Assembly: GCA_945861585.1 (NCBI GenBank) | Contig: CAMAVC010000005.1 | Coordinates: forward strand, 1-64,000 | DNA length: 64,000 bases | Reading direction: 5' to 3' | From: Planctomicrobium piriforme | GTDB lineage: Bacteria; Planctomycetota; Planctomycetia; Pirellulales; UBA1268 | Shown here: in pieces, positions 3,281 through 63,627 of the stretch | Layout: each line of letters begins with the position of its first letter | Position numbering within the stretch: the first letter of the stretch is position 1 | The notes under the pieces: model-generated | Told to the model about the DNA's origin: nothing | The model's input: the letters and a program-made list of their open reading frames with translations, nothing else | The model's database searches: none | Made by a program: the position numbers and the translations under genes

Positions 3281-4816
3281 ATGAGCAAACGCCTGGTGCA
3301 GGACGTGGCTGCGGCGCGTCACTCCGGCGGAGTGACGCCAATCCGGGCGAATGGCAGCCGCGAGGCTGCTGGGCCGGCACCAGACGCCCTGAAAGCGACG
3401 TTGTGGGACGCCCTCCGCGAGCGAATCGGCTCCGAGCGGCACGCCGTCTGGTTCGGCGATGTGCCGCAGGTCGAGATTCTGCCCGCCGCTGACGGCGGCA
3501 TGGTGGCCGTGCTCTCGGTGGGCGACGGCCGCACCCACGAGTGGCTCCGAAAGATGTTCAAGGCCGATATCGAGGCGGCCGTCCGGCAGGTCTGCGGATC
3601 GAATGCCACCGTCGACTGGCTGGCGGCTCCAGCGGACGCCGCCCCCCTCGCTCCTCCGGCAGTGAGCGCCACGTCGCCGGAACATGCCGGCCAGCCGTCT
3701 CGAACAAGCCGCCGCTCGGCCCCGCGGCCGGAGGCCCCTCCGTCATCCGTGCGGCCTGCGTCGGGGCCAGCCCTTCCCACGCGGCCCGCGCCCCGTCTCG
3801 AGACGTTCGTCGTCGGCCCGGTCAACCGGATGGCCCACGCGGCGATCGAATTGGCAGCCACGCGGCCAGGTGAAATGTCGCCGCTCGTGCTTCACGGCCC
3901 CACCGGCACCGGCAAAACGCACCTGCTCGAAGGCATCTGCCACCGGTTTCGTACGCTCCATCCGCGGGCTGCGGCCGTCTATCTGTCCGCCGAACAATTC
4001 ACGACGACGTTCCTTCAATCGCTTCACGGCACCGGCCTGCCGGGCTTTCGCCGCACCTGCCGCTCCGCCGACCTGCTCGCGATCGACGATCTGCAGTTTT
4101 TCATCGGCAAGAAAGCCACGATCGTCGAGCTTCAGCAGACGATCGACGTGCTCCAGCGGCAGGGTCGCCAGCTCGTGTTCGCCTGCGATCGCGAGCCGGA
4201 ATCGCTCGTCGACCTCGGTCAGGATTTGCTCGTGCGGCTCCGTGGTGGCATGACCGCCCGTGTGCTGCCGCCCGATGAAGACGTGCGGCGCGGAATTGTC
4301 GAATCGATCGCCGCCCGCCGCGGCATCGCCGTGCCGACCGACGTCGTGCAGTTTGTCGCCTCCCGGATGACCCGCCATTCCCGGGAGTTGGCCGGCGCCG
4401 TCAATCGGCTCGAGGCCACGAGCCACATGCTCGGGCTGCCGATCACGCTCGCCATGGCCGAGGAGGCGCTCGCCGACCTCGTGCGGGCCAGCGCCCGCAG
4501 CGTGCGCCTCGCCGACATCGAGCGGGCCGTCTGCGCCGCCTTCGGTATCGCTGCGGGCACGCTCCAGTCGGCCCAGCGCGGCAAGAAGGTGAACCATCCG
4601 CGGATGCTCGCCATGTTTCTGGCCCGCAAGCACACGCCCGCCCCGCTCACCGAGATCGGCAGCTACTTTGGCCGCCGGAGCCACTCGACCGTGATTTCGG
4701 CGCAGAAGGCGGTCGACGAATGGGTGGCAAAGCAGTCGCGGATCGTGCTCGCCGACGCCACCTGGGACGTCGCCGACGCGATCCGCCGCGTCGAAGAATC
4801 GCTCCGCGCGGGGTGA
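3281..4816 (+). CDS. dnaA: Chromosomal replication initiator protein DnaA
   Basis: Walker A GPTGTGKTHLL, Walker B DLLAIDDLQFF, C-terminal DNA-binding signature-like YFGRRSHSTVISAQKAV. Confidence 0.85.
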   Translation: MSKRLVQDVAAARHSGGVTPIRANGSREAAGPAPDALKATLWDALRERIGSERHAVWFGDVPQVEILPAADGGMVAVLSVGDGRTHEWLRKMFKADIEAAVRQVCGSNATVDWLAAPADAAPLAPPAVSATSPEHAGQPSRTSRRSAPRPEAPPSSVRPASGPALPTRPAPRLETFVVGPVNRMAHAAIELAATRPGEMSPLVLHGPTGTGKTHLLEGICHRFRTLHPRAAAVYLSAEQFTTTFLQSLHGTGLPGFRRTCRSADLLAIDDLQFFIGKKATIVELQQTIDVLQRQGRQLVFACDREPESLVDLGQDLLVRLRGGMTARVLPPDEDVRRGIVESIAARRGIAVPTDVVQFVASRMTRHSRELAGAVNRLEATSHMLGLPITLAMAEEALADLVRASARSVRLADIERAVCAAFGIAAGTLQSAQRGKKVNHPRMLAMFLARKHTPAPLTEIGSYFGRRSHSTVISAQKAVDEWVAKQSRIVLADATWDVADAIRRVEESLRAG

Positions 4817-4827
4817 ACTGCTTCCGT

Positions 4828-5146
4828 GTAGGACAGGCTTCAGCCTGTCGTGCCCTTCTCAATCGCGCCGGCTTCGGGCTCCCCATATCCCGTCGCCGGA
4901 CGTTCGCCTCCGCCCGACCAATCCGCCTGCGGCGGATCGGTGCCCGGCTCCGGCTCACTCGGATTTGCCTGCGCTGCGCCATCCATGGCTTCGCTGGTCA
5001 AATACGCCGTCGAGCGGGACACGGGGAGCCCAAAGCCTCCCTGTTTGGAAGCCCGAGGCGTGAGCCGAAGGGAATACGCGTCGTGTTTCGCCACCGGGGC
5101 ATCCTCTCGGCTTACGCCTCGGGCTTTCGTTGAGGAGCCCGAAGCC
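4828..5146 (-). repeat. Dispersed structured element, copy B (core 4870-5037), joined to an inverted pair of GAAGCCCGAGGCGTAAGCCGAAGG REP units (about 5047-5131)
   Basis: GTAGGACAGGCTTCAGCCTGTC at 4828-4849. The reverse complement of the core is almost identical to copy A. A GATCCGCCGCAGGCGGATT hairpin is inserted in one stem. Confidence 0.85.
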
Positions 5147-5150
5147 GGCG

Positions 5151-5978
5151 TTACTGCAGCCGCTCTTCGAGGCTCGCCTTGTAGCGGACGCTCGATTCGG
5201 GGCCGCTGAAGCCGACGACGCGGCGGTCGACGCCCGTCGAGCGGCGGAGGAGTCGGCCGCGGGTCACGTCGAACTCGATCTCGCCATCCCAGATCCGTTC
5301 GAGCAGCCGGGCCTCGAGCCGCGGGTCGTCGAGCGGCGTGAGCACGGTGGTGTCGACGTGGATCGTGGCCACGCCGTCGCGGAGGGCGTCGACTCGGTAG
5401 CGGAGGCGGGTCTTCACGGCTTTGCGCGGGCCGTTCGGCACCTCCACCACCACCTCCTGCGGCACCGTCCACTCGGTGCCCACGGAAGCGGGCTCGTCGG
5501 GGAGCGGCACCACCATGAGGTCGCCGGTGCTCGAAGGGGGCGTGGGCTTGAAGTCGCGGCGCCCGAGGACGCGGCCGGTGGTATCGACCTCGACCCGCGA
5601 GAGCGGCACACCGAGGCTCTGCGTCACGGCCTCGTAGTCGGGCGGCACGGGGCCCGGGTCGCGGCTGCTCCAGCGTGTCTCCCCCTTGTCGCTCGTGCGC
5701 GACGTCATCGTCACGTCGCCCACGGAGTGTTCGATCGTGGCATGGCCGTCCGCATCGACGGCCACGACGGTCCAGATCTTCGTGGAGTCGGTGGCCGTTT
5801 CGACCGATTGTTTCGTGGCGCCGATCGTCGTTTCGGTGAGGGCGCGGTGGGCCACGTCCATTGTGATCGTTTCGCCCGGCTCGAAACGGTAGCGGAGCGC
5901 CACGCCGTCGGCGCCGAGCGCGGCCGCCGCTGCCAGGCAGCCCGCCACCACGGCGAAAAATGACGCAGCGCGGTTCAT
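5151..5978 (-). CDS. DUF6263-like secreted hypothetical protein
   Basis: Signal peptide MNRAASFFAVVAGCLAAAAALG followed by YRFEPGETITMDVAHRA..; family assignment tentative. Confidence 0.6.
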   Translation of the reverse strand: MNRAASFFAVVAGCLAAAAALGADGVALRYRFEPGETITMDVAHRALTETTIGATKQSVETATDSTKIWTVVAVDADGHATIEHSVGDVTMTSRTSDKGETRWSSRDPGPVPPDYEAVTQSLGVPLSRVEVDTTGRVLGRRDFKPTPPSSTGDLMVVPLPDEPASVGTEWTVPQEVVVEVPNGPRKAVKTRLRYRVDALRDGVATIHVDTTVLTPLDDPRLEARLLERIWDGEIEFDVTRGRLLRRSTGVDRRVVGFSGPESSVRYKASLEERLQ

Positions 5979-57295: not shown

Positions 57296-60619
<3,324 letters not shown>

Positions 60620-60919: not shown

Positions 60920-61309
60920 ATGATGCGTCTTCCCACGATCTTCACCGTCCTGTGTGCCGTCGCCGTCAGCCTGATGGTCGCCGACACCGCCTCCGCTGCC
61001 GGCCGCGGCCGCCGTGGAGCCTCCAGCTGCGACTGCGCCCCGGCCTGTGCCGAGCCCGCCTGTGCCGCCGCCGAGCCGGCGTGCTGTGCGGCCGAGCCCG
61101 CCTGCGCTGCAGCCGAACCGGCCTGCTGTGCCGCCGAGCCCGCCTGTGGCGCCGAGCCGGCTTGCTGTGGGACCGCTCCCACGCACCGTCGTGCCCGTCG
61201 CGGCCTGTTCTCCGGCCGGCGTGCCCACCACGGTGGCAGCACGAGCGGCTGCGCGAGCTGCTGCGAAGAGCCGGCCTGCTCGGCCGAGCCCTGCTGCAAC
61301 GCGGGCTGA
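60920..61309 (+). CDS. Secreted Cys-rich repeat protein (AEPACCAAEPACA repeats)
   Basis: RBS-like GAGGAG before the ATG; signal peptide MMRLPTIFTVLCAVAVSLMVADTASA; tandem AAEPACC/AAEPACA units. Confidence 0.75.
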   Translation: MMRLPTIFTVLCAVAVSLMVADTASAAGRGRRGASSCDCAPACAEPACAAAEPACCAAEPACAAAEPACCAAEPACGAEPACCGTAPTHRRARRGLFSGRRAHHGGSTSGCASCCEEPACSAEPCCNAG

Positions 61310-61354: not shown

Positions 61355-61383
61355 GCGGCGGGGGACACGACGTCCCCCGCCGC
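61355..61383 (+). terminator. Intrinsic-terminator-like hairpin
   Basis: GCGGCGGGGGAC-ACGAC-GTCCCCCGCCGC, 12-bp perfect stem followed by TGTCTTT. Confidence 0.7.
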
Positions 61384-61392
61384 TGTCTTTAT

Positions 61393-61532
61393 GGCATGTC
61401 TCGACATCCTGTCGAACATGCCTTGGCGGGCCTCCGCCCGCTGGTGGTGACCCGGCCGGCTGTGTTCACGGCACGTCTCGACATCCTGTCGAACGTGCCT
61501 TGGCCGGCCTCCGCCGGCTGGTGGTGACCCGG
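61393..61532. repeat. Two copies (77-bp period) of a double-hairpin REP-like unit
   Basis: 61393-61455 and 61470-61532: GGCAyGTcTCGACA-TCC-TGTCGAACrTGCC followed by CsGGC-CTCC-GCCsG and GCTGGTGGTGACCCGG. Confidence 0.85.
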
Positions 61533-61590
61533 GCCTCCGGCCCTGGTGCGTTTGGGCGGGGTGCGTTCGAGTGGTGGTAGTCTGTCGCGC

Positions 61591-63627
61591 ATGGTGAACC
61601 GACTTTTCGGCGGGGCGATCGTGGCGGCGGTGCTCGTGTCGGCGGCGTGTGGCGTCGCCGACGGGCCCGCGGACAATCTGCCTGGGAGCGTGCGGCCGAT
61701 TCCGCCGCCTGGGATCGAGCTCGATGAGGCCACGCAGCGGCGGCTGCTCGATGGCGCTTCGGCCCTCGTGCGCGACGTGGCTGCGGTCGAAGAGGCCGCC
61801 GCAGCTGACCGTGCTGAAGCGCTCGTCTTCGCCCGCGCCGTCCGGCTGGCCGTGGACGAGCGATTTCTCTACTCGGACAAGGAGGTGGAGCAGGCGGAGC
61901 GGCTGCTCGATCGCGGCCGCGAGCGGCTCGCGGCGCTGCGAGCCGGAGCGAGCGGAGCGAGGCTGGTCCTGTCGGGCAGCGTGCAGGCGAGCGGGCCGCG
62001 GCTCGCCGTCGGCGGCTTTCGCTCAAGCATCGACGGCTCGGTGCAGCCCTACGGCCTCGTGCTGCCGGCAGATGTCGATGCAGCCGACGCCCGCCCGCGC
62101 CGGCTCGACGTGTGGCTCCACGGCCGCGACGAGCAGGTGAGCGAGGCGATGTTTCTCGCACGGCGGCTCGCGATGGTCGGCGAGTGCGCGCCGCCGCACA
62201 CGATCGTGCTCCATCCCTACGGCCGCTATTCCAATGCCTTCAAGTTCGCCGGTGAGGCCGACGTGCTCGAGGCGATCGAACACGTGAAGACGCTGTTTCC
62301 GATCGATGACACCAGGATCGCGATCCGGGGCTTCTCGATGGGAGGCGCCGGCTGCTGGCAGTTCGCCGTGCACTTCCCCGGCATGTGGCTCGCCGCCACG
62401 CCGGGGGCCGGGTTTGCGGAGACGCGCGAGTTTCTGCGGACGTTCCAGCAGCAGGCGTTCGAGCCCACTGCCGCCCAGGCTCGGCTTCTTCACTGGTATG
62501 ACTGCCCCGACTGGGCGAACAACCTCCGGCACCTGCCGACGATCGCCTACAGCGGTGAGCTCGACAGGCAGAAGCAGGCGGCCGACGTGATGGTGGCGGC
62601 CTGCGCACAGCGCGGCTTCGAGACCCCACACATGATCGGGCCGCAGACGGCGCACAAACTCCATCCCGAATCGAAGGTCGAGATCGAGGCGTTCGTGGCC
62701 CGGGCTGCGGAGCAGGGGAGGCCTGTCGCGCCGCGCGAGATCGATTTTACCACCTACACGCTCCGCTATCCCACGCACACCTGGCTCACCATCAACGGCC
62801 TCAGCGAGCATTGGCGCGAGGCGCGGGTGCGGGCGGCGGTCGCTTCGCCGCGCGCGATCGAGATCACGACCACGAACGTCACGGCGCTCGCGCTCGACAT
62901 CCCGCCCGACGCCCAGCTCGTGGATGCGAGCGCCGCAGTCGCAGTGCGCATCGACGGGGCTGCGCTCGACGTGCCGCCCACGAGCGGGCCGCGGTGGCGG
63001 GCGGCGCTCACGAAAGCGGATGGCGCGTGGCGGCTCGACACCGCCGTGGATGCAGACGGAGCCTTGCGAAAGCGGCCTGGCCTGCAGGGGCCGATCGACG
63101 ATGCCTTCATGAGCGCTTTCCTGTTCGTCGGGCCGGCGCCGGGGCACGAGCCGGCATCGCCTGCGGATCGCTGGGTGGCCGACGAGTTTGCCCGGGCGAA
63201 GCGGGAGTGGCGGCGGCACTTTCGCGGCGACGTGGTCGAGCGGCTGCCGGAAGATCTTTCGGCTGACGACATCGCCACGAAGCATCTCGTGCTCTTCGGC
63301 ACTCCCGAGTCAAACCCGCTCGTCGCGAAGGTCCTGCCGGGCCTGCCTGTGAAGCGCGAGAGCGAGGCATGGGTCGTCGGAGCCACGCGGTCGCCGGCGG
63401 GCACGAGCCTGCCGGTGCTCGTGTACCCCAACCCACTCAACCCGGAGCGGTACGTCGTCTGGAACAGCGGCTTCACGTATCGGGAGTATGCCTACCTCAA
63501 CAACGCCCGGCAGATACCCATGCTGCCCGACTGGGCGCTCGTGAGCACGGTCGAGGGGCGGGATTCACAGTTCCCCGGCACGATTCTGGCCGAGGGATTC
63601 TTCGACGAGCGCTGGCAGCCGCGCTAG
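61591..63627 (+). CDS. Secreted alpha/beta hydrolase/esterase-like protein
   Basis: Signal peptide MVNRLFGGAIVAAVLVSAACG; DDTRIAIRGFSMGGAGCWQFAVHFPGMW (GFSMG nucleophile elbow). Confidence 0.75.
   Translation: MVNRLFGGAIVAAVLVSAACGVADGPADNLPGSVRPIPPPGIELDEATQRRLLDGASALVRDVAAVEEAAAADRAEALVFARAVRLAVDERFLYSDKEVEQAERLLDRGRERLAALRAGASGARLVLSGSVQASGPRLAVGGFRSSIDGSVQPYGLVLPADVDAADARPRRLDVWLHGRDEQVSEAMFLARRLAMVGECAPPHTIVLHPYGRYSNAFKFAGEADVLEAIEHVKTLFPIDDTRIAIRGFSMGGAGCWQFAVHFPGMWLAATPGAGFAETREFLRTFQQQAFEPTAAQARLLHWYDCPDWANNLRHLPTIAYSGELDRQKQAADVMVAACAQRGFETPHMIGPQTAHKLHPESKVEIEAFVARAAEQGRPVAPREIDFTTYTLRYPTHTWLTINGLSEHWREARVRAAVASPRAIEITTTNVTALALDIPPDAQLVDASAAVAVRIDGAALDVPPTSGPRWRAALTKADGAWRLDTAVDADGALRKRPGLQGPIDDAFMSAFLFVGPAPGHEPASPADRWVADEFARAKREWRRHFRGDVVERLPEDLSADDIATKHLVLFGTPESNPLVAKVLPGLPVKRESEAWVVGATRSPAGTSLPVLVYPNPLNPERYVVWNSGFTYREYAYLNNARQIPMLPDWALVSTVEGRDSQFPGTILAEGFFDERWQPR

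Follow-up and report, generated by a model that had tools for sequence, protein, structure and literature searches.

A three-hairpin repeat with covarying stems and conserved loops in planctomycete bacteria, probably a REP/BIME-like mobile element

Downstream of a gene for a Cys-rich repeat protein, the window – the whole stretch of 64,000 nucleotides that was analysed – contains two neighbouring hairpin-rich sequences, whose stems differ in sequence and stay paired. The question raised by this locus is what keeps the stems paired: the function of an RNA, a mutational process, or the spread of a DNA element that is recognised by its fold. The Cys-rich gene (plus strand, about 60922-61309) follows a minus-strand gene named SecA from its sequence (57296-60619), and an S9-peptidase-like hydrolase gene (61591-63627) lies downstream of the hairpins. 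The product of the Cys-rich gene comprises 129 aa with AEPACCA repeats and a likely signal peptide, and is without a Pfam match. 3' of this gene, a separate strong hairpin with the 100% complementary arms GCGGCGGGGGAC/GTCCCCCGCCGC occupies positions 61355 to 61383 of the plus strand; it lies outside the repeat described below and was not seen upstream of its other copies.

The original prediction of a duplicated double hairpin holds at this place: two 74-nt copies (61382-61455 and 61459-61532), which are 91% identical, follow each other at a spacing of 77 bp. They differ at seven positions, three of which belong to the 5' flank; the other four constitute exactly two complete, pair-preserving double changes, as had been claimed: a T-A pair of stem 1 is replaced by C-G, and a G-C pair of stem 2 likewise by C-G. 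Four stem changes at random would yield two complete, correctly matched pairs with a probability of approximately 1.6e-4. On either strand, the predicted fold of the region is far better than that of dinucleotide shuffles (z = -6.2 and -6.9). More base pairs make up stem 1 than initially described: it consists of 7 bp, a bulged C, 6 further bp, and a TCC loop.

Both sequences are assigned, on the plus strand, to one module of three hairpins (H1 to H3) by a covariance model that was derived from 29 copies. Copy 1 (61388 to 61463; 77.5 bits) consists of H1 (GGCATGT-C(bulge)-TCGACA-TCC-TGTCGA-ACATGCC, 61393 to 61422), H2 (GCGGGC-CTCC-GCCCGC, 61426 to 61441), and a vestigial H3, CCGGCCGG; the same tandem form, H1-H2-CCGGCCGGCTG, also occurs at L002, L003, and L037. 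Copy 2 (61465 to 61549; 106 bits, E-value 3.5e-21 in the genome) is complete, with H1 (GGCACGT-C(bulge)-TCGACA-TCC-TGTCGA-ACGTGCC, 61470 to 61499), H2 (GCCGGC-CTCC-GCCGGC, 61503 to 61518), a linker GGT-GGTG-ACC (61520 to 61529), and H3 (GGGCC-TCC-GGCCC, 61531 to 61543). H1 and H2 are covarying helices in both copies. H3 had been noted as a hairpin following directly; it is indeed present, but as the third helix of the module itself, so that the feature, originally given as 61393-61532, extends to about 61549. That H3 belongs to the module is indicated by its third pair: among the 88 copies with letters there (alignment A2, see below), 59 have C-G and 27 have G-C. The short GGT/ACC pairing of the linker is conserved, each pair being kept in 26-27 of 29 sequences; with zero compensated changes among these 29, it provides no evidence of covariation.

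The complete module is about 85 nt long and comprises H1 with 7+6 bp, H2 with 6 bp, and H3 with 5 bp. Its consensus reads CTRKN, followed at the junction by TTCAC-[7 bp]-C-[6 bp]-TCS-[6 bp']-[7 bp']-TTG-GCSGRC-CTCC-GYCSGC-TGGTGNTNACCC-GGSCC-TCC-GGSCC-TGRCGC. Conserved are the loops (TCC/TCG in H1, CTCC in H2, TCC in H3), the linkers, and the one-base bulge in H1, which is retained in 128 of 133 distinct copies (C in 110, A in 15); the stem lengths are fixed as well. The 5' foot is TTCAC, which is preceded by words similar to CTRKN. Unlike those of a MITE, the ends of the module (TTCAC...GGCGC) do not form an inverted repeat. In the window's own genome (G000, a MAG of 3.67 Mb), tandem forms are spaced by 77 bp and lack a looped H3 between the units. 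In one of its five congeners (G001-G005), namely G003, many units alternate with the palindrome GGACAGGCTTCAGCCTGTC in tandem arrays at a distance of 122 bp. Overall, the arrays are mosaics resembling the BIMEs of E. coli.

What appeared to be a local duplication is a dispersed family: a BLAST search with the window region gave 43 matches in G000, and the covariance model found 81 (about 80) matches there, 104 in G003, 106 in G004, and 29-32 in each of the remaining three congeners. The module occurs in 16 of 23 genomes of the same planctomycete family and in none of 124 others of the order. A scan of approximately 85,000 species genomes with a degenerate pattern gave matches in MAGs labelled planctomycete only, some of which bear the label Candidatus Kuenenia. 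The hosts of the module are freshwater planctomycetes belonging to one group. Candidatus Kuenenia stuttgartiensis is the label of the MAGs that carry it at L228, L231, L235, L236, L241, and L263; these labels may be wrong, and apart from these MAGs it was seen in only one other planctomycete family. Carriage by a phage, plasmid, or virus was rejected, as the sets of viral contigs, plasmids, and phages contained zero matches.

The original prediction was to be refuted if the stems failed to covary in more copies. Among 172 aligned copies, however, stem covariation is massive, while loops, bulge, and linkers are fixed. In alignment A2 (97 distinct copies), 96.8% of the cells are paired versus 77.7% after shuffling, 408 two-sided pair-preserving changes compare with 115 in shuffles, and the covariation score is 0.442 versus 0.123 for shuffled and at most 0.075 for slid partners; in A3 (69 distinct copies), 95.7% of the cells are paired, with 308 two-sided changes and a score of 0.468. 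A2 and A3 were fitted to the model and are thereby biased in favour of the structure, and copies that are related do not count as independent; A1, which was aligned by MAFFT and not fitted to the model, yields the same covariation result. The outer stem of H1 alone occurs in 58 different words, and the modules reassort. We read this pattern as indicating that the shape of the hairpins matters in the module and that the sequence of the stems hardly does.

In G000, 31 of the 32 copies that were mapped are situated outside predicted genes; 14 copies have convergent neighbours and only 2 have apparently divergent ones, with the window copy as one of these two owing to a missed gene call. Insertion sites and copy sets differ between the congeners. 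At one orthologous site, the module follows a TAG stop codon in G000 and is absent in G001-G004, where the next gene is close by; at a second site, G000 and G002 carry it, and G001 and G003 do not. A comparison of empty and filled sites at these two loci shows flanks that are too diverged to define a target-site duplication. Amplification is species-specific, and the module sets are concerted within species: the copies of G003 are near-identical, with H2 being GCCGGC throughout and H1 being mostly GGAAAAT or GCAAACA. At sites shared between species (G000/G002, G000/G004, G000/G003), multiple compensated changes separate the stems, or H1 stems have been replaced in their entirety, which fits gene conversion or replacement.

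At a probability of roughly 0.6, the module is a lineage-specific, non-autonomous, REP/BIME-like mobile palindromic repeat of three short hairpins. Its mobility we infer; the original prediction, structural selection or hairpin-dependent mobility, is supported by the covariation in many copies and by the insertion differences at orthologous sites, with hairpin-dependent mobility as the best explanation. A protein would recognise the folded single strand, with its bulged H1, NTCC loops, and conserved linkers, during replication or repair. Such a protein would accept any stem sequence that folds, so that the stems could vary freely yet stay paired, and copies ceasing to fold would cease to spread or to be converted. 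Both the hairpin-recognising protein and active transposition are inferred here, and some copies, which are old and orthologous and whose stems changed in place, may also reflect a host function or gene conversion.

A host function at the RNA level is the rival that fares best, and we regard it as rather unlikely. It holds that the module is a 3'-UTR element which stops or stabilises transcripts, bidirectionally between convergent genes, and that selection on RNA folding keeps the stems. Its genomic placement would suit this role: the 32 mapped copies are found mostly 3' of genes, in 14 convergent, 9 co-directional, 5 opposite, and 2 apparently divergent gaps. Eight of the 32, all mapped in G000, begin 0-2 nt after a predicted stop codon; where a stop precedes the module, it is frequently a TAG or TGA that occupies -4 to -2 relative to TTCAC. 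Moreover, conserved loops and linkers together with covarying stems are the usual mark of a structured RNA. The orientation relative to the genes argues against an RNA function. Genes were called by a simple codon-score finder, which missed the gene at 60922-61309, so that the window copy counts as co-directional and not as divergent; the resulting 9 or 10 co-directional versus 5 opposite placements are not a significant bias. At one shared intergenic site, the module is even inverted in G002 while carrying the same H1 word. Nor is there a U-tract after any of the hairpins, as expected of an intrinsic terminator; they are followed by TTGG, TGGTG, and TGRCGC. No Rfam family was found in the window at the gathering score; the best sub-threshold match at a relaxed E-value, Xoo2 with 27 bits versus a cut-off of 45, was read as chance and rejected.

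The mismatches also bear on this rival. Selection for pairing in a single RNA strand would be expected to tolerate G.U more readily than A.C. The core pairs, counted after leaving out four pairs adjoining the bulge or a loop, comprise 2516 Watson-Crick, 23 G.U, 20 A.C, and 33 other pairs; G.U, accounting for 0.9%, is not preferred over A.C (p = 0.76). Inclusion of the edge pairs gives 38 G.U and 45 A.C, with opposite leanings at the loop-closing pairs of H1 (10 G.U, 1 A.C) and H3 (3 G.U, 19 A.C). In a very small control, the 63 pairs of tRNA acceptor stems from the same loci, there were 4 G.U and 0 A.C. Since G.U is as rare as A.C, the pairing seems to be constrained symmetrically, as in hairpins of single-stranded DNA or cruciforms, and the constraint looks like one on DNA and not on a single RNA strand; for this reason, we lowered our estimate of an RNA-only reading. 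RNA termination or processing, originally named as something to check, thus gives way to pairing that is DNA-level or strand-symmetric, in view of the G.U count, the missing U-tract, and the inverted site. The comparison of G.U with A.C mismatches offers a simple way to separate covariation at the DNA level from that at the RNA level.

A second rival dispenses with selection and, as we judge it, is improbable: template switching within the hairpin during replication (quasipalindrome correction) would copy one arm onto the other and so restore the pairing, and gene conversion between dispersed copies would distribute the outcome. Template switching is favoured by the two-sided changes, many of which exchange G-C for C-G; intermediates are few, and neither strand is preferred. 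Stem words shared within a genome by reassorting modules fit conversion. The copying of one arm would, however, erase the bulge in H1, which nearly all distinct copies keep; the loops are equally fixed in sequence and the stems in length, and template switching alone leaves new insertions unexplained. Both processes may act alongside mobility.

If the module is a mobile repeat, a Y1 (HUH) transposase comes to mind as the mobiliser, and two Y1_Tnp genes were found in G000. The first (C106:4551-5066; motifs EHVH, WWTEGG, YVKECQ) resembles class 3 and is flanked by AAGCCCGAGGCG... palindromes; a module copy lies 88 bp downstream. Homologues in G014, G018, and G022 possess flanking palindromes of their own, similar in form and matching the description of class 3 (PMC6006769), and a divergent module copy (43.7 bits) was detected about 220 bp upstream of the G014 gene. 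The only Y1 genes with a module copy at a distance of a few hundred bp or less are those class-3-like genes of G000 and G014, and the two class-3-like genes of G022 have none within 1.5 kb, although this genome contains at least 30 copies. The class 3 foot CnGA is likewise not typical of the module: of 161 copies, only about 8 have CTGA in front. No Y1 transposase was found in G002-G005, draft MAGs from which repeat-flanked genes may be missing; because G003 and G004 nevertheless have over 100 copies each, we read the proximity in G000 and G014 as chance in repeat-rich gaps. None of the Y1 genes found is flanked by the module in the manner of a REPtron; a Y1 or RAYT mobiliser was rejected, as different palindromes accompany both sides of these genes, and it is very improbable that the module is the cognate repeat of the class-3-like transposase. 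The second Y1 gene of G000, which is RAYT-like (L075 on C9, about 4657-5340), has ATTCGGTGCCTGGCACCGAAT palindromes on its flanks, a textbook REPtron layout. In the window, AAGCCCGAGGCGYRAGCCGA palindromes at 5052, 5107, 13813, and 13853 are the same as those flanking the class-3-like gene, and a related sequence is found inside H2 of some module copies (L090:8251, L091:8102).

Conserved stem and tag sequences are the usual basis on which REP-type repeats are recognised. With REP/BIME elements mobilised by a RAYT (TnpA-REP), the module shares that it is a short, intergenic palindrome with a bulged hairpin, present in high copy number downstream of genes, clustered or in mosaics. It differs in having three hairpins in fixed order, with stems that are free in sequence but paired, and no RAYT has the module as its own flanking repeat. 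GTAG or CGTC tags define the superfamilies of REPs, of which the CGTC type is without a dedicated transposase (PMC3733652). The module has neither a GTAG/GTGG nor a CGTC foot, and GTAG was not seen at this position in 161 junctions. The TnpA-Y1 class 3 structures (PMC6006769) are likewise planctomycete DNA secondary structures of high copy number adjoining a Y1 gene, but the class-3-like genes considered here have their own palindrome, and the module is not their regular flank. The repetitive hairpin and double-hairpin elements of mitochondria (PMC2800124) also are repeated hairpins which invade intergenic DNA without a known enzyme, and the insertion differences at orthologous sites are analogous to their behaviour. 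In the sponge elements, the stems are conserved and the loops vary (PMC2800124); the module is their opposite, with conserved loops and covarying stems, in a different genome and without a known sequence relation. In open-access papers, a search found no bacterial example of such a pattern. We tentatively consider, while leaning against it, that the module is a bacterial mobile DNA that is recognised almost purely by shape, often sits exactly at a stop codon, and is spread by an enzyme that is neither a known RAYT/Y1 nor any other recognised transposase. Its spread without a detectable Y1 enzyme raises the question of what moves it. With more than 50 interchangeable outer stems and a fixed bulge and loops, the family constitutes a natural test of a protein reading the shape of a DNA hairpin alone.

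Further repeats were noted. The REP-like palindrome GGACAGGCTTCAGCCTGTC, often after GTA or GTG (a GTAG/GTGG foot), occurs in the window at 4831, 16156, 20008, and 20366. Pieces of larger composite intergenic repeats, GGCGTATTTGACCAGCGGAGCCAT + TAGTCCTCAACGACTCCCTTCGTCTG, are located at 29, 138, 4985, 16332, 16440, and 20232, and such composites flank the module elsewhere in the genome. At L275, L276, L277, L278, L279, and L280, a series of hairpins follows the stop codon of a gene whose product ends with ...FKPEYYRY and is probably an adenosylhomocysteinase; the sequences differ among congeners and the hairpins persist, which may represent a conserved 3' UTR structure.
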